From the NCBI RefSeq assembly GCF_024346395.1, contig NZ_JAGQCW010000001.1:558001-622000 (forward strand): 64,000 nt of DNA, written 5' to 3'. The stretch's first letter is position 1; every line of letters starts with the position of its first letter. Of this stretch, positions 4,406 through 9,284 are shown one piece after another. Made by a program: the position numbers and the translations under genes. The DNA comes from Cyanobium sp. AMD-g (GTDB taxonomy: Bacteria > Cyanobacteriota > Cyanobacteriia > PCC-6307 > Cyanobiaceae). The notes under the pieces are model-generated. The model searched no databases and was not told the origin of the DNA. It saw only the letters and a list, made by a program, of their open reading frames with translations.

Positions 4406-4739
4406 ATGAACCAACGGCGCGCGGCGGTGGGTGTGATGGGTGCCGGAGAAGGCGCCTCCGCGGAGACGGTGACCCTGGCGGAGGCACTGGGGGAGTGCAT
4501 CAGGGCCAGGAGGTGGGTGCTGCTCACCGGTGGCCGCCCTGCGGGGGTGATGGCGGCGGCCAGCCGCGACGCGGTGCGGGTGGAGAGGCACCTGGTCGTG
4601 GGGGTGCTGCCCGATGAGAGGAACGGTGATGAGAGGCCGCGCACGACGGCTGGATCTGGCGGTGTTCACCGGTATGGGCAAGGGCCGCAACGTGAGCAAC
4701 GTGCTCAGTGCTCATGTGATGGTGGTCTGCGGGGGGGGG
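4406..4739 (+). pseudogene. TIGR00725-type Rossmann-fold protein, frameshifted and truncated
   Basis: The start (ATG with AGGTGG upstream) leads into RAAVGVMGAGEGAS and WVLLTGGRPAGVMAAASR, the signature of the TIGR00725 family, related to molybdenum-cofactor carrier and LOG-type proteins. After VVGVLPDERNGDERP the homology jumps by one base near 4635-4650 into another frame, giving LDLAVFTGMGKGRNVSNVL and VMVVCGGG. It stops at a run of nine G (4731-4739), where sequence from an opposite-strand oxidase gene begins. Roughly the last 40 residues of a normal family member are missing. Both lesions mark it as dead. Confidence 0.75.
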
Positions 4740-5080
4740 ATGTGGAGTCCATGGAAGTGCAGGTTGGTGGGCTGGTTGAGGCCATTGCGCAGGCGCAGGC
4801 GCACCGCATCGCCGGCGTTCACCTCCAGCAGCGGGCCGGGTGAGCGGCCGTTGTAAGTGAGCCGCTCGGCGGGGCCACCGGGAAGGGTCCCCCTCGTGGT
4901 CTGGGCCACCAGCTCCAGATCAGCGACGCCGCCACGGGAGAGCAGGTGGGCCGCACCGGCCGGCTGGGCCCGGGCGGCGGAGCGCTGCAACCGGTCCCAG
5001 AGAACCGGCCCGACCACGGCCGTGCCGAGGCCGGCGAGCCCCAGGCCGAGCACCTGCCGTCGCCGAAGAGGAGTGGTCAT
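4740..5080 (-). pseudogene. Multicopper oxidase, N-terminal fragment only
   Basis: The ATG at 5080 opens a twin-arginine signal (LRRRQVLGLGLAGLG), then the first cupredoxin domain of a multicopper oxidase: YNGRSPGPLLEVNAGDAVRL and the copper-ligand stretch NLHFHGLHIPP. The homology ends there, at the C9/G9 tract shared with the TIGR00725 fragment, and the frame stops at about residue 122. Intact copper oxidases of this type have three cupredoxin domains and about 450-500 residues, so over three quarters is lost, including most copper ligands. It lies 10 bases behind the DUF411 gene and would be cotranscribed from the MerR-type promoter at 5599-5629. The full enzyme would have oxidised Cu(I) in the periplasm. 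Confidence 0.85.
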
Positions 5081-5090
5081 GGTTGGGTCC

Positions 5091-5573
5091 CTATTGGGCG
5101 TGCTGGGAGAAGCTGCTGATGGCTCCGGTCCGCGTGAAGGCCATCACCGTGTACGCCTCTTTGCCGTAGGCCGATTCCATGCCTGGGGAGCCCAGGGGCA
5201 TCCCCGCCACGGGCGGCCGTTTCTGCAGCAGCCGTTTCACATCGGCAGCAGGGACGTGACCCTCAAGGGCAAAACCAGCGACTTCGGCGGTGTGGCATGA
5301 GGCCAGGCGGGCGGGGACCCCCAGGCGTCGCTTGATCACGGCGACATCCGCCACAACGACATCGCGCACAGCGAAGCCATTGGCGCGTATCTGCTGCACC
5401 CAGCGCTTGCAGCACACGCAACTCGCGGATCGGCAGGAGGTGACCGGCATCAGGGCTGGAGCACTGGCGCGTGCCGCGAGCGACCCGCCCCCTGAGACAA
5501 CGGCAGCAACAGCGCCGACCCCCAGCAGCAGGTCCAGGATCCGCGCATGACCGCGGAAGGGTGTCGCGTTCAT
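5091..5573 (-). CDS. DUF411 metal-binding protein
   Basis: A 160-residue exported protein with an N-terminal hydrophobic signal region (10-40). It shows the DUF411 pattern: Cys47, Cys52, Cys54 and Cys55 (SCRSASCVCCKRWV), then LASCHTAEVAG (Cys93), EGHVPAADVKRLL, and MPLGSPGME near 125-133. DUF411 proteins occur next to copper oxidases and efflux genes and are thought to bind Cu in the periplasm; the exact role is not settled. The ATG at 5573 sits about 20 bases past the expected transcription start of the MerR-type promoter. The gene leads an operon with the truncated oxidase. Confidence 0.88.
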   Translation of the reverse strand: MNATPFRGHARILDLLLGVGAVAAVVSGGGSLAARASAPALMPVTSCRSASCVCCKRWVQQIRANGFAVRDVVVADVAVIKRRLGVPARLASCHTAEVAGFALEGHVPAADVKRLLQKRPPVAGMPLGSPGMESAYGKEAYTVMAFTRTGAISSFSQHAQ

Positions 5574-5598: not shown

Positions 5599-5629
5599 CC
5601 GTAGAACCTCCACTTGAGTGGAGAGTCAA
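5599..5629 (-). promoter_or_regulatory. MerR-type promoter/operator driving the DUF411 operon
   Basis: On the minus strand: -35 TTGACT (5629-5624), a 19-base spacer (5623-5605) containing the perfect palindrome CTCCACT-CA-AGTGGAG, then -10 CTACGG (5604-5599). A 19-base spacer with a dyad centred in it is the hallmark of promoters activated by CueR/ZntR/MerR proteins. Very similar elements lie at 5680-5710 and 8833-8863. Confidence 0.85.
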
Positions 5630-5679: not shown

Positions 5680-5710
5680 TTGACTCTCCCGCCAAGTGGA
5701 GACCATACGG
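5680..5710 (+). promoter_or_regulatory. MerR-type promoter/operator driving the DUF305 gene
   Basis: -35 TTGACT (5680-5685), a 19-base spacer (5686-5704) with an imperfect dyad CTCCCGCCAAGTGGAG, and -10 ATACGG (5705-5710). It is divergent from the element at 5599-5629 and gives a transcription start just upstream of the ATG at 5734. This excludes the earlier possible starts of that open frame. Confidence 0.8.
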
Positions 5711-5733: not shown

Positions 5734-6453
5734 ATGCTTTTGTCTCGTTTCACCGCTCCCTTGCTCGGGCTGACTGCCGCCCTCTCCGTGGCGACCCCCG
5801 TCCTGGCCCAGATGCCCGCTGGCATGCATCACGACGGGCACCACGGCATGCCGGGCACGACCGCCCCGACCAGCGCCACCATGGACCATGCCGCCCACGC
5901 CCACGACGTGGGCCCGGCCGGTGCCACCTACGACCTGCGCTTCATCGATGGGATGGTGCAGCACCACACCGGCGCCCTGCGCATGAGCGAATTCGTCTTC
6001 AACATCGGCCAACCCGGCGTGGGCGCCCTTGGCAAGACGATCTGGCGCGATCAAGCCAACGAGATCCGGGCGATGGGCCTCTGGCGCAAGGCCTGGTATC
6101 CCCAGGCGCCCGTTTACCCGGTGGCGCTGGCCAAAGGCGGCGACCCCAATAGCCTCAGCGGCCTCACCCGCATGAGCCAGGCCCAGATCGATGGCATGCG
6201 CATGATGGGTGAGGGCCCCACCAGGGAGAACCGGGTAGTGTGGTTCCTCGAAGGGATGCTCGAGCACCACGGTGGCGCGCTGATGATGGCCCACGACGCC
6301 CTGGCAAAAAGCACCAATCCAACAATCCGGCGCTTCGCCAGGGGGGTGATCGTGGCCCAGCGCGCCGAGATCATCGAACTGCGTCGGATGCTGGCGGTGG
6401 AGGGCTTGCGCAAGCCGGAGTACAGCAAATATGACGCCCTGTTTGCTCTTTGA
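5734..6453 (+). CDS. DUF305 periplasmic metal-binding protein, CopM-like
   Basis: A 239-residue protein. The start was chosen because the frame upstream overlaps the promoter; from ATG 5734 a clean signal peptide follows (about 1-25, ending VLAQ). The region after it is His/Met-rich (MHHDGHHGMPG and similar). Two DUF305 halves follow: FIDGMVQHHTGALRMSEF (about 70-88) and FLEGMLEHHGGALMMAHDAL (about 171-190). DUF305 proteins such as Synechocystis CopM bind copper in the periplasm. MerR-type control and the divergent DUF411/oxidase operon support a copper-defence role. A deleted second copy lies at 7320-7690. Confidence 0.88.
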   Translation: MLLSRFTAPLLGLTAALSVATPVLAQMPAGMHHDGHHGMPGTTAPTSATMDHAAHAHDVGPAGATYDLRFIDGMVQHHTGALRMSEFVFNIGQPGVGALGKTIWRDQANEIRAMGLWRKAWYPQAPVYPVALAKGGDPNSLSGLTRMSQAQIDGMRMMGEGPTRENRVVWFLEGMLEHHGGALMMAHDALAKSTNPTIRRFARGVIVAQRAEIIELRRMLAVEGLRKPEYSKYDALFAL

Positions 6454-6865
6454 GCAGGACCAGATTGGGTCTAGGCGATCGTCAGACAGTGAGCAGATGA
6501 CGCCACATTCAAGTGACTATATGATCGGCTCATCTGACGTTCATAGCATGGCCCATCCAGAGGTGACTTAACCACAATGTGTGCCGTCAGGGATAGCCTC
6601 CCTGACGCATAGCCGACGTCGCGTCGCTGTGATCTCCTGGAAACGCCTGGGTTCAATGCTGGCCCGTTGGTCACGGACCCAGGTGTCGCCTTGGCTGGCA
6701 ACGTTGCTGCCGACTCCTGATACCCACTAAAAGCCTGATCCATCAAATGGGTGTGATGTGGCCCATCAATGATTAGCTCGTCACGTTGGGGCTCCATCGG
6801 TTGATGGAGCCCTCAGCCGCCTGGCGGCCTCCTGTGAGGTGATCCGCAGGGCGATTCGGGTGGAC
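6454..6865. other. Intergenic with a strong hairpin at 6789-6812
   Basis: No gene is recognised. At 6789-6798 and 6803-6812 the arms GGGCTCCATC and GATGGAGCCC form a perfect ten-pair stem with a GGTT loop. It lacks a following T-run, so it is either a weak terminator or an RNA-processing stem. Open frames here have no family pattern. Confidence 0.45.
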
Positions 6866-7235
6866 ATGATCGCAACGACCAACTTGATGGTGGTGGTGGG
6901 GCTGGTCAATCTCCAGGGGATGAGGATCCTCCAGATCGTTCAAGGTGGGCCTGACGACGAAAGCGGTGCGACACCAGACCGGCCTTTATCCCTATCTGGA
7001 GCTGCTGGTGGGGCTGGCCGTGCTGGCTGGCCAGGCCATCCCTCCGATCGGAGGGATGGCAACGTTGATGGGGTTGGAAGGCGCGATCTCGGTGATCCAG
7101 GCGGTCTACATCGACAAGCTCGATCTGAACTGCGCCTGCGTGGGCGGCAACAGTCGGACCCCGCTCGGTCTTGTCAGCGTTCTGGAGAACGTAGCGATGG
7201 TGGCGATGGGTCTATTGATGCTGAGCGGGACCTGA
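6866..7235 (+). pseudogene. MauE/DoxX-type membrane protein, probably frameshifted
   Basis: The downstream frame (GTG 6945 to 7235) encodes about 96 residues with three hydrophobic segments and the motif NCACVGGNSRTPLGLVSVLEN, a version of the Cys-containing motif of MauE-family redox-associated membrane proteins. The expected first helix is in the preceding frame from ATG 6866 (TTNLMVVVGLVNLQGM), with a stop just before the second frame opens. I read this as one four-helix gene with a one-base shift near 6920-6945. A truncated but functional protein from 6945 is possible. MauE-like proteins accompany heavy-metal genes elsewhere. Confidence 0.6.
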
Positions 7236-7319
7236 GACCGGTGCGCCGCTGCCATCCGATCAAGTCCCTGGCTTCCACCAAGGTGCCCGTCGTGAAAGTC
7301 TCTGCTCCTTCCCTTGGCG

Positions 7320-7690
7320 ATGCGCACCCCCAGCCAGCCACGGCTCGCCGCTCCTTGCCGCCCTTAACCATGGCGTGGGCCCCTCCGGTGCCAACGAGAG
7401 GACCTACAAGCAACAAACGCAGATTCCGTCGTTGCGCCCGGTATGGGGCCCTCGGAAAGACGATCTGGCGGTATCAAGACAACGAGATCCGGGCGATGGA
7501 ACGATGGCGAAAGATCCCGTCCCCCCAGGCGCCCGTTGATCCGGTACCCCTGGCCAAGAGCACCAAACCCACCGTCCGGCGCTTCCCCGGGGATTTGATC
7601 GTGGCCCAGCGCACTGAGAGCCTTGAACTACGCCGCATGCTGGCGGCCGATGGCCAGCGCAAGCCGGAGTACGGCAAAGATGACGCCCAT
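7320..7690 (+). pseudogene. Second DUF305 gene with internal deletion
   Basis: From about 7434 the frame encodes GALGKTIWRYQDNEIRAMER, then VDPVPLAKSTKPTVRRF and ESLELRRMLAADGQRKPEYG, each closely matching the intact DUF305 protein at 5734-6453. Compared with it, about 60 residues are missing between PVALAKG and ALAKSTNP, joined at a shared short CTGGC/AA sequence. Both His-His motifs are therefore lost. Degraded similarity to the upstream part (GTGGGCCC...GGTGCCA) is visible back to about 7360. This is a dead paralogue. Confidence 0.75.
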
Positions 7691-7755
7691 TTTTTGGTTG
7701 ATCAACGTCTCCTTAGACCGGCGGTAACAGACCCCAAGCATCTGAAGCGGCCAAG

Positions 7756-8020
7756 ATGAATCCGTCGACGGTCAACCAGGAACACTGCCATCACCACGGG
7801 CAGCACGACAGCCATGGAGCGCCAGGGAAAGGCCACGGCGGAAAGCGGATGGCCAAAGACCCGATCTGTGGCCTGCCGACAAGGCTGGAACGATCAAGAC
7901 CCTGCCGTTGGCGGAACAGAACGTGGCGATGGTGGGTGGTGGCCTTGAGTTCGCTGTCGGAGATCGTGAATTGCTCCTTGCTGCGTCGCTTCCCGGCAGC
8001 TTGATCAAGATGGCGGTGCT
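7756..8020 (+). pseudogene. Remnant of a copper P-type ATPase (tentative)
   Basis: ATG 7756 opens a His-rich segment (HCHHHGQHDSHG), then AKDPICGLP, which resembles the YHS-type DPVCGM motif at the N terminus of some copper-exporting P-type ATPases. In another frame the next bases encode DKAGTIKT and NVAMVGGGLEFAVGD, plausible decayed forms of the DKTGT phosphorylation motif and the VAMVGDGINDAPAL hinge motif. If so, the middle of the gene is deleted and it is frameshifted. The motifs are short, so the call is moderate, but the context of copper genes supports it. Confidence 0.5.
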
Positions 8021-8025
8021 GCCGG

Positions 8026-8292
8026 CTACCTGGCACTCCAACGGCCCAGCAACAAACCAATCCCCGAGCCGGCAATGAACAGGGTGAGGATGCCGAGGAC
8101 CGTGGAGTAGTAGGGCTGAAGATTGATGGCCCCGAAGTTGCCTGTGTGCAGTTTGATTAACCAGAAAGCTTCGATGCCGCGGGCCGACAGGGCGCCATAG
8201 AGCGAACCGGAGAGAGCCGTCAACAGGAGTGGCAAGGCGGCCATCGGCACCAGAGTGCGGTGAACGCGGCGCATCAGGTGATGGCGGTTCAC
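8026..8292 (-). CDS. Small PepSY-type membrane protein
   Basis: An 88-residue protein starting at GTG 8292, overlapping the stop of the DUF3721 gene by four bases (GTGA). It has two predicted membrane helices (about 14-34 and 64-84). RRVHRTLVPMAALPLLLTAL and the WLIKLHTGNFG / LQPYYSTVLG segments match the conserved head and tail of PepSY-associated membrane proteins, here reduced to a minimal two-helix form without the periplasmic PepSY domain. As third gene of a MerR-type operon with two secreted DUF3721 peptides it may anchor or move a metal or redox partner in the inner membrane. Function not established. Confidence 0.75.
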   Translation of the reverse strand: MNRHHLMRRVHRTLVPMAALPLLLTALSGSLYGALSARGIEAFWLIKLHTGNFGAINLQPYYSTVLGILTLFIAGSGIGLLLGRWSAR

Positions 8293-8543
8293 TCGTTCTG
8301 AAGCGCCTTGTGCAACTGCTGTTCATTGGCACAGGGCATCCACAGGGAGCCCATCGCAAAAGCTCCTTTGCACTTGAGTTCGGCGGCCCGTTGCTCTGCC
8401 TCCTGTCTGGTCTTGAACATGCCCTTCATGTGCGCGCCGGCGGGTGGGGTGATGAAGAACGGCGAGACGCTTGATGCTGCCAAGGCAGCCAGCAGAGCCC
8501 ACCGGCTTCCCTTCAGGTGTGGGATGGTGCGGTGATCGTTCAT
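8289..8543 (-). CDS. Secreted DUF3721 peptide (second copy)
   Basis: An 84-residue precursor with a long signal peptide (about 1-37, ending PPAGA). The mature part of about 47 residues carries MFKTRQEAEQRAAELKCKG and FAMGSLWMPC, the DUF3721 pattern with its WMPC motif. The two Cys and several Met residues are possible Cu(I) ligands (inference). It aligns closely with the neighbouring copy at 8589-8804. It lies 45 bases downstream of that gene and overlaps the PepSY-type gene, forming one operon. Confidence 0.8.
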   Translation of the reverse strand: MNDHRTIPHLKGSRWALLAALAASSVSPFFITPPAGAHMKGMFKTRQEAEQRAAELKCKGAFAMGSLWMPCANEQQLHKALQNE

Positions 8544-8588
8544 CGGGTGGTTGCTGGATAGATCAAAGGAACGGTTGCGATCGCCAAG

Positions 8589-8804
8589 TCACTTCTCCTT
8601 GGAGACGGCCTTTTGATAGGCCTCAAAGTTCTGACAGGGCATCCAGTCCTTGCCCATCGCAAAGACACCGCTGCACTTCAGCGCCTTGGCACGCTGCTCC
8701 GCAGCGGCTTTGCTCGGGAACATGTCGTAGTCCTGGGCGCGAGCGGCGCCGGGGGCCAATCCGCCAGCTGCCATGAGCACAAGAACCAGAGTGAAGCGGT
8801 GCAC
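8589..8804 (-). CDS. Secreted DUF3721 peptide (first copy)
   Basis: A 71-residue precursor starting at GTG 8804, about 20 bases past the expected start of transcription from the MerR-type promoter at 8833-8863. A signal peptide (1-23, ending GAARA) precedes a mature peptide of about 48 residues with MFPSKAAAEQRAKALKCSG and FAMGKDWMPC. Conserved with the second copy are the Met-Phe start, the AEQRA helix, LKC-x-G, FAMG and WMPC. No function is established for DUF3721; regulation by a metal-type MerR suggests periplasmic metal binding or sensing. Confidence 0.82.
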   Translation of the reverse strand: MHRFTLVLVLMAAGGLAPGAARAQDYDMFPSKAAAEQRAKALKCSGVFAMGKDWMPCQNFEAYQKAVSKEK

Positions 8805-8832
8805 GGACTACCAGGGAAAGGAACCACAGTCA

Positions 8833-8863
8833 GTTTAGAGTCTCCCCATAAGTGGAGAGTCAA
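8833..8863 (-). promoter_or_regulatory. MerR-type promoter/operator driving the DUF3721 operon
   Basis: On the minus strand: -35 TTGACT (8863-8858), a 19-base spacer (8857-8839) with the dyad CTCCACTTATGGGGAG, and -10 CTAAAC (8838-8833). The geometry is identical to the elements at 5599-5629 and 5680-5710. The -35 box lies only four bases from the start codon of the divergent merR-type gene, so the regulator probably also controls itself from this site. Confidence 0.85.
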
Positions 8864-8867
8864 GCCC

Positions 8868-9284
8868 ATGGCTGCCGTCAGCCTCACGACTGGGATGAAG
8901 ATCGGTGCCCTGGCCGGCCGCAGTGGCCTGCCGGTCAAGACCCTGCGCTACTACGAGGACCTGGGTCTGTTGCCGGCGATCGGTCGCAGCGAAGGTGGCT
9001 ATCGCCTGTTCGCTGAAGAGAGCCTGCGCCGTCTGGAGTTCATCCGCCGCCTCAAGACCCTTGGGCTCAGCCTGGAGGAGATCCAGGCCTGCCTGGCGGT
9101 GCACGATGCCGGTGAACTGCCCTGCGGTGACATCGAGCTCCAGCTGGGCCGTCAGATCGAGCGGATCGATGGCCAGATCAAGGAACTGCGGCAACTCAGA
9201 AAGGAACTCCACGATCTGCTGGCCGGCTGGCAGAGCCAACCCGCCAAGGACAGCAACGTGATCTGCCCCAATCTGCATGTGTGA
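8868..9284 (+). CDS. MerR-family heavy-metal-responsive regulator
   Basis: A 138-residue protein starting at ATG 8868; longer versions would read through the operator. The N-terminal winged helix-turn-helix (11-45: IGALAGRSGLPVKTLRYYED then GLL) is typical of MerR/CueR proteins, followed by a dimerisation coiled coil (about 88-120). Cys86 in GELPCGDI and Cys133 in the C-terminal VICPNLHV are candidate metal ligands of the Cu(I)/Zn group; Cys75 is a third. By family logic it distorts 19-base-spacer promoters when metal-bound. Three such promoters with a common dyad lie within 3.3 kb, making it their likely regulator. Copper is the likeliest inducer from gene content; not proven. Confidence 0.88.
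   Translation: MAAVSLTTGMKIGALAGRSGLPVKTLRYYEDLGLLPAIGRSEGGYRLFAEESLRRLEFIRRLKTLGLSLEEIQACLAVHDAGELPCGDIELQLGRQIERIDGQIKELRQLRKELHDLLAGWQSQPAKDSNVICPNLHV

Follow-up and report, generated by a model that had tools for sequence, protein, structure and literature searches.

The subject of this report is a short segment of a 64,000-nucleotide stretch of the Cyanobium sp. AMD-g genome (contig NZ_JAGQCW010000001.1, positions 558,001 to 622,000; the whole stretch is called the window here, and the genome that contains it measures 3.12 Mb). At window positions 8026-9284, a MerR-type regulator gene diverges from an operon encoding two small proteins of Pfam family DUF3721, DUF3721a and DUF3721b, and an 88-residue membrane protein with two helices. 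We propose that these genes probably constitute a MerR-switched periplasmic copper module, in which a peptide with an N-terminal histidine (His1) would bind copper and the membrane protein would serve as its partner, possibly a haem-binding one. The regulator, the operon and the site that controls it are as follows.

8868..9284, plus strand: MerR regulator, 138 residues, with Cys in LPCGD and in the C-terminal VICPNLHV
8841..8863, minus strand: MerR-type operator/promoter of the DUF3721 operon, TTGACTCTCC-N6-GGGGAGA, with a long spacer
8589..8804, minus strand: DUF3721a, 71 residues, GTG start; signal peptide, then mature QDYDMF...LKCSGVFAMGKDWMPC..., N-terminal His absent
8289..8543, minus strand: DUF3721b, 84 residues; signal peptide, then mature HMKGMF...LKCKGAFAMGSLWMPC...QLHKALQNE, N-terminal His predicted
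8026..8292, minus strand: two-helix membrane protein resembling a mini-PepSY protein, 88 residues, GTG start, H11 and H49 invariant

Gene frames and Pfam matches confirm what a first-pass annotation of this DNA had described, a MerR gene and, running the opposite way, an operon for exported peptides and a membrane protein. Both peptides pass the DUF3721 (PF12518) cut-off of 27 bits, DUF3721a with 43.5 and DUF3721b with 51.9. They have signal peptides and share LKCxG, FAMG and WMPC, as that annotation stated, and their mature parts, which it put at about 48 residues, are predicted at 48 and 47. The promoter of the operon consists of TTGACT at 8863-8858, a dyad CTCC...GGAG within the spacer and then CTAAACT. 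The dyad proposed earlier is real, and its 19-base spacer holds when counted to CTAAAC, the distance to TAAACT being 20; across 40 operator sites, the TAnnnT register fits best at a spacer of 20.

This operator is not confined to the DUF3721 operon. A scan of the genome containing the window demanded the complete dyad and allowed at most 3 mismatches, so that weaker sites would escape it; it returned 19 matches, six of which keep TTGACTCTCC. The six precede the DUF3721 operon, a DUF411 gene, a DUF305 gene, a second operon of DUF3721 and membrane protein, a DUF305 remnant with a multicopper oxidase gene (C6), and a P-type ATPase gene (C6). The DUF411 and DUF305 copies lie in the window.

5607..5629, minus strand: operator copy 2, upstream of DUF411, from the genome dyad scan
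5091..5573, minus strand: DUF411 protein under operator copy 2, by Pfam match
5680..5702, plus strand: operator copy 3, upstream of DUF305, from the genome dyad scan
5734..6453, plus strand: DUF305 protein, CopM-like, under operator copy 3 (Pfam DUF305, 110.7 bits; cut-off 27)

The DUF305 protein stays below the cut-off for CopM itself (NF049983, 82.7 bits against 90), and the DUF411 protein is presumably CopG-like. On C6, the ATPase is of the copper-translocating type (TIGR01511, 601.7 bits; curated cut-off 397), and the multicopper oxidase site adjoins another DUF305 gene and a seemingly frameshifted MerR gene. The second operon with an operator is found at C1:550,719, just left of the window (L022:12195-12741), and is convergent to a FetB-type gene.

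The same association is seen in other genomes. Exact TTGACTCTCC occurs 42 times (a few of them overlapping) in 1.04 Mb of fetched loci, and its reverse does not occur; 299 other permutations of its letters (300 were drawn, one being the pattern itself) gave a mean of 1.15 and a maximum of 14. The scanned DNA is enriched in cassette loci, having been chosen mostly for holding DUF3721, and it includes three loci of the window's own genome chosen by operator (L020, L021 and L022), of which L021 was excluded from the set of 40 distinct exact sites. Thirty-eight of the 40 lie at most 600 nucleotides upstream of a gene from one of these families (DUF305 15, DUF3721 12, DUF411 6, MauE 2, multicopper oxidase 2, copper ATPase 1), and two have none. 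We also surveyed 80 loci of the membrane protein, the best 80 of 267 relatives found by alignment against named genomes, which come from Cyanobium, Synechococcus (including WH 5701 and WH7803), Prochlorococcus and various metagenome-assembled genomes. Strains with relatives of the peptide and membrane-protein pair include Cyanobium sp. N.Huapi 1H5 and Synechococcus WH7803. The operator TTGACTCTCC...GGAG is present in 29 of the 30 loci with MerR, whereas only 2 of the 50 without MerR have it (MerR and operator 29, MerR alone 1, operator alone 2, neither 48). A scan for strict palindromes had yielded no more than 5 sites, of which 2 were the operator, and was superseded by the exact half-site scan. 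The enrichment of TTGACTCTCC is not due to chance, and TTGACTCTCC...GGAG marks a regulon. At five other loci (L138, L140, L141, L142 and L144), where a different MerR diverges from another DUF3721 pair, a related, longer-spaced dyad, CTCYAG...GGAG, was seen by eye between the genes.

The regulator itself says less about the metal. The operator is used by two clades of MerR proteins: the first is marked by LPC...VICPNL, the second by CTC or CHC together with a final CGG. CueR carries a CX7C metal loop. This loop is absent from all 42 MerR sequences compared, 36 of them operator-linked, and the window MerR reaches 76.7 bits with the CueR model TIGR02044, whose cut-off is 147.4; an assignment as CueR was rejected on both counts, and for the same reasons the MerR sequence does not settle the inducing metal. 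Copper is nevertheless the leading candidate, as copper-ATPase, DUF305, DUF411 and multicopper oxidase genes have this operator upstream, and gene neighbourhood makes a copper context for the module very likely.

DUF3721 is present in 282 of the 299 genomes examined in the order and 39 of 42 in the genus. In a sample of 244 genomes from the phylum it is found in 24, all in the picocyanobacterial family, and therefore looks like an invention of picocyanobacteria, including Prochlorococcus; the listed part of the DUF3721-negative genomes in this sample contains no family member. In a study of coastal picophytoplankton, Prochlorococcus was reported to be the group most sensitive to copper (PMC13374865, available in part). 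The membrane protein has strong matches (E below 1e-30) in 16 of the 24 family genomes of the phylum sample. In the 80-locus survey, DUF3721 lies immediately upstream of the membrane protein in 74. Of the remaining six, two start at a contig edge (L200, L205), three have no DUF3721 (L235, L241, L245), and in L232, from one Prochlorococcus genome, all that is left of DUF3721 is its final codons, which immediately precede the membrane protein gene. Within 6 kb, DUF305 is found in 37 loci, MerR in 30, DUF411 in 17, MauE in 15, a copper ATPase in 14 and a multicopper oxidase in 9, and 53 of the 80 have at least one of MerR, DUF305, DUF411, oxidase or copper ATPase. Twelve of the 22 Prochlorococcus loci are ordered MauE-DUF411-DUF3721-membrane protein. 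Two contigs, titled Bifidobacterium breve and Gammaproteobacteria bacterium (L176, L206), carry picocyanobacterial cassettes and probably reflect binning or labelling errors.

Relative to a related locus, L089, that of the window appears decayed. The multicopper oxidase frame at 4712-5080 is shortened to 122 residues, the gene at the same place being longer in relatives, and between DUF305 and the operon, at 6815-7943, lie remnants of a FetB-type permease, MauE (6945-7235), a second DUF305 and a copper ATPase that correspond to genes of relatives such as L089 and L086. The reading frames of the DUF3721 operon, MerR, DUF411 and DUF305 are all open.

The copper association depends on the membrane protein. 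We compared 51 DUF3721 loci with and without this partner (L106-L136 and L146-L165; of the 23 genomes that supplied them, one belongs to the window's genus, and the window's own genome was excluded), counting as partner-bearing L158, whose membrane protein is a remnant. DUF411, DUF305, MerR, oxidase or copper ATPase genes lie within 5 kb of 11 of the 20 loci with the partner, whereas none of the 31 without it has them (Fisher p 3.5e-6). A neighbourhood survey of DUF3721 had been set beforehand as a refuting test of the metal link, and half of it went against the proposal: the refuting pattern, DUF3721 away from metal genes, holds for all 31 partnerless loci, against 11 of 20 near such genes where the partner is present. 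The copper link is thus a property of the pair, not of the domain. A role for DUF3721 as a general copper domain was rejected, given these 31 loci and the 8 of them near ZnuA or ZnuB, which indicate that the domain is not copper-specific. The other DUF3721 members form a core pair, the larger with GIVPMG repeats and the smaller often His-rich at its end; in the window's genus, five chosen core-pair loci adjoin a different MerR. A core-type member with GIVPMG repeats is also present in the window's own genome (L145, also L023; G000:C2:413066), and some marine DUF3721 genes adjoin ZnuABC-type, ArsP_1 or DUF1980_C genes. At L158 (6437-10591), the DUF3721b-type gene with the partner remnant is near an AcrB/CusA-type gene for resistance-nodulation-division efflux.

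Relatives of the membrane protein (E up to 0.001) turn up in 72 of the 244 genomes sampled from the phylum, and 17 of these 72 belong to the family. Five larger neighbourhoods outside the family were picked after a first look. L299 and L300 have CopB and a multicopper oxidase; L298 has CopB, MerR and a glutaredoxin-MauE protein; L297 has MerR and a calcium-type P-type ATPase; and L296 has nothing of the kind. At L298, L299 and L300, a small exported protein beside the mini-PepSY relative is predicted, by eye, to start with His when mature (S|HEGHSH in two, A|HNGERH in one).

A similar start is predicted for DUF3721b. In the window protein the predicted cut, PAGA|HMKG, would leave a mature N-terminal His, and 72 of the 74 DUF3721 genes upstream of the membrane protein encode His1 at a predicted AxA|H cut, followed by two Cys; the pattern, which requires both Cys, fails in L175 (shortened) and L179 (truncated). 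All 74 have LH after the second Cys. Mature DUF3721b aligns without internal gaps, and a set of 39 aligned DUF3721 sequences that includes 8 a-type ones shows no variation at the two Cys (C-x12-C), W31 or A12. Freshwater forms read CxGxFxMG and most marine forms CxxxHxN. Mature DUF3721a begins with Gln in the aligned sequences; the sorting into types uses the motif itself and gave 36 b, 14 a and 1 unclear among 51. An AlphaFold2 model of DUF3721b has a compact alpha-beta-beta-alpha fold with a predicted local distance difference test score (pLDDT) of 85.9. A fold search with it gave nothing above Z 2.6, and a PDB sequence search for DUF3721 at E up to 5 gave 6 weak matches, the best at E 0.1.

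His1 and the constant His of LH suggest a possible Cu(II) site of the CopC or His-brace type. In the copper histidine brace, as set out in the available part of PMC10952591, the amino group and a ring nitrogen of an N-terminal His act with a further His. His1 alone does not decide the metal, because proteins found by seeking such an N-terminal His include a nickel binder (PMC12537917, in the portion accessible to us). For DUF3721b we lean slightly toward copper at His1. The first-pass annotation had proposed Cu(I) binding by Cys and Met. Its choice of copper is supported by the operator-linked gene families, but it had missed the predicted mature His, on account of which Cu(II) binding appears at least as likely as a Cu(I) sponge. 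Its statement that DUF3721 has no described function accords with our searches, in which the family is not named in the literature covered and the module does not appear in the titles or abstract beginnings from further searches.

The membrane protein had been described as a PepSY-type protein of two helices overlapping DUF3721b by GTGA. The overlap, four bases shared by the DUF3721b stop and the start of the next gene, is confirmed. For the single sequence the PepSY assignment is weak (PepSY_TM, PF03929, 10.8 bits, E 0.4; cut-off 28.8), but each of the 29 aligned members has a PepSY_TM match at E up to 1, the best at 5.8e-5. A similarity to FtsX, with E 0.02-0.03 in the window protein and present in 9 of the 29 members, was set aside as a helix match because PepSY_TM matches all 29. 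Seventeen columns are invariant, including H11, R12, P21, G29, W44, H49, G51, F53, N57, Q59 and P60, and the two His motifs that bracket PepSY_TM (HR and HxG) are thus kept throughout, as H11 and H49. Model and alignment have only a short stretch between the two helices, with no extracytoplasmic PepSY domain. An ordinary 188-residue PepSY protein of another cyanobacterium has IHK before helix 1, a PepSY region, and HLHTG before helix 2; in a profile comparison with it, the HTG half aligns (E 6.3e-5, probability 64.6%) and the first half does not. FoxB (7abw) has LHR and IHGG at similar places in an alignment that is weak: E is 0.024 over the whole sequence, and no single stretch reaches significance. 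A fold search with the membrane-protein model gave unrelated helical bundles (best Z 7.7) and no informative relative, and a PDB sequence search at E up to 5 gave no matches.

Other cyanobacteria contain ten fusions (L286-L295) in which the two-helix unit is duplicated in one chain, each keeping four His. Both His are kept in all 22 relative units compared, 20 from these fusions and two single units from picocyanobacterial family genomes. Three further two-unit proteins (L248, L249, L255) were flagged as exceeding the PepSY_TM cut-off; for two of these the flag depends on adding in neighbouring matches. The small protein looks like the two-helix half of a PepSY_TM protein after loss of the PepSY domain, and its dimer would hold the same four His as the two-unit fusions. 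Haem binding and redox activity are a tentative possibility for it.

These observations are consistent with a model in which MerR, under metal stress, would activate the long-spacer promoter of the DUF3721 operon and, at the further operator copies, the DUF411, DUF305, multicopper oxidase, MauE and copper-ATPase genes. The DUF3721 proteins would be exported and DUF3721b cleaved to leave His1, which may bind copper together with the constant LH His and both invariant Cys. The mini protein has a conserved His motif close to either end of its membrane span; joined as a dimer, two copies would expose a pair of His on each face, like FoxB-type haem reductases. In what we consider the likeliest working, DUF3721b would be a soluble copper carrier. 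Its partner in the inner membrane, the mini-PepSY protein, would either offer it a docking site or donate electrons and so determine whether the copper is Cu(II) or Cu(I). DUF3721b would hand its copper over to this protein or have it reduced there; MauE-glutaredoxin and DUF411 proteins would be thiol and copper redox partners. A bolder version, which we regard as doubtful, is a periplasmic copper reductase, or copper-state setter, pared down to two parts. The 47-residue His1 peptide would carry Cu(II) and replace the lost PepSY domain, and the two-helix PepSY remnant would dimerise into a four-helix, two-haem wire that feeds electrons to the peptide. This version is suggested by the invariant His motifs of the mini proteins and the four His kept in the ten fusions, as well as by the near-obligate linkage to a His1 peptide and the mature-His exported proteins at L298, L299 and L300. 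The shared-operator copper module offers a first testable function for DUF3721, and the mini protein may be a minimal form of PepSY_TM reductases.

Several observations weigh against a copper module switched by MerR. The best NCBIfam score of the window MerR is for CadR-PbrR (88.7 bits; cut-off 151.45, not reached), followed by MerR, ZntR and CueR, with no curated cut-off reached, and its LPCGD motif places Cys where monovalent-metal sensors have Ser. The cleavage that would expose His1 was read from the AxA motif rather than from a predictor, the CxxxH histidine of the marine form is absent from freshwater DUF3721b, and the DUF3721 protein of the second own-genome operon (L022) resembles a chimera of the a and b types and lacks His1. 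The model of the membrane protein, two long helices, is mediocre (pLDDT 75.1; predicted template modelling score 0.47). None of the listed copper genes is nearby in 27 of the 80 survey loci (some clipped by contig ends) or in 9 of the 20 partner-linked family-sample loci, and MerR, operator, DUF305, copper ATPase and oxidase occur in none of the 22 Prochlorococcus loci. Other DUF3721 genes, those of the partnerless loci, adjoin ZnuA or ZnuB in 8 of 31 loci and none of the families sought in the remaining 23. At L299, the response regulator scores as RppA (355; cut-off 250) and not as the copper/silver type (159.6; cut-off 420), so that another metal is possible there.

Some of these points favour other explanations. 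A response to a divalent metal (Zn, Cd, Ni or Pb) would fit the Cys pattern and CadR-PbrR score of MerR, the ZnuA/ZnuB neighbours of other DUF3721 genes (8 of 31 loci), the RppA-type regulator beside one mini-PepSY relative and the capacity of N-terminal-His proteins to prefer Ni (PMC12537917, same portion); we find it unlikely, as the operator-linked genes belong to copper families and include a copper ATPase above its cut-off. About as improbable is a passive periplasmic sponge, whose peptides would sequester Cu(I) by Cys and Met with the membrane protein as a mere tether. The two invariant Cys and several Met of freshwater DUF3721 would suit it, as would the tandem copies a and b and the neighbouring DUF305/CopM family, a known periplasmic copper binder according to the part of PMC4284471 that was available, but a sponge has no need for the constant His1 and LH, kept also in marine forms without the FAMG Met, nor for the invariant His of the membrane protein. 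His1, LH and the operator-linked copper genes are likewise left unexplained by a module for general thiol/disulfide stress, in which a MauE-glutaredoxin protein would act on the Cys pair of DUF3721; despite MauE in 15 of the 80 loci, the existence of glutaredoxin-MauE fusions and the two invariant Cys, we think this very improbable.

Copper supply, a possible aim of the module in place of defence, deserves somewhat more weight, although we give it less than even odds; defence, the aim named by the first-pass annotation, is likewise a candidate. Periplasmic copper would be captured and reduced for plastocyanin or cytochrome oxidase, as has been proposed for the PepSY_TM protein CrpH, a proposed and not demonstrated periplasmic copper reductase in the accessible text of PMC13038864. 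Retention of the module in Prochlorococcus loci with neither MerR nor operator would fit supply. In freshwater forms, however, the module shares its operator with genes that make up a set of the resistance type, those for copper ATPase, DUF305, DUF411 and oxidase. We retain the MerR-switched copper module with a His1 peptide and a membrane partner as the preferred reading.

Known systems share parts of this module. The MerR-type copper regulon of enterobacteria is CueR-CopA-CueO. Like such regulons, the present one has a long-spacer promoter and uses one operator for a copper ATPase and a multicopper oxidase; unlike them, its regulator falls below the CueR cut-off and lacks CX7C, and DUF305, DUF411, DUF3721, mini-PepSY and MauE genes are added. 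DUF3721b resembles CopC, YcnI and other N-terminal-His copper carriers in being secreted, with a predicted mature His1, a further constant His and copper-gene neighbours, but it differs from these carriers in its 47 residues, its predicted alpha-beta-beta-alpha fold and its two invariant Cys, and its metal binding is putative. A relative of Synechocystis CopM, the DUF305 periplasmic copper binder, neighbours the module under the same operator, but DUF3721 is a different Pfam family, and CopM is under CopRS rather than MerR (PMC4284471, in the part noted above). Finally, the mini protein shares with the PepSY_TM reductases FoxB and CrpH, the latter copper-linked, an HR before helix 1, an HTG before helix 2 and the two-helix unit. 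It differs from them in lacking a PepSY domain, in having two helices instead of four or more, in the score of the window protein below the Pfam cut-off and in its haem, which is putative.

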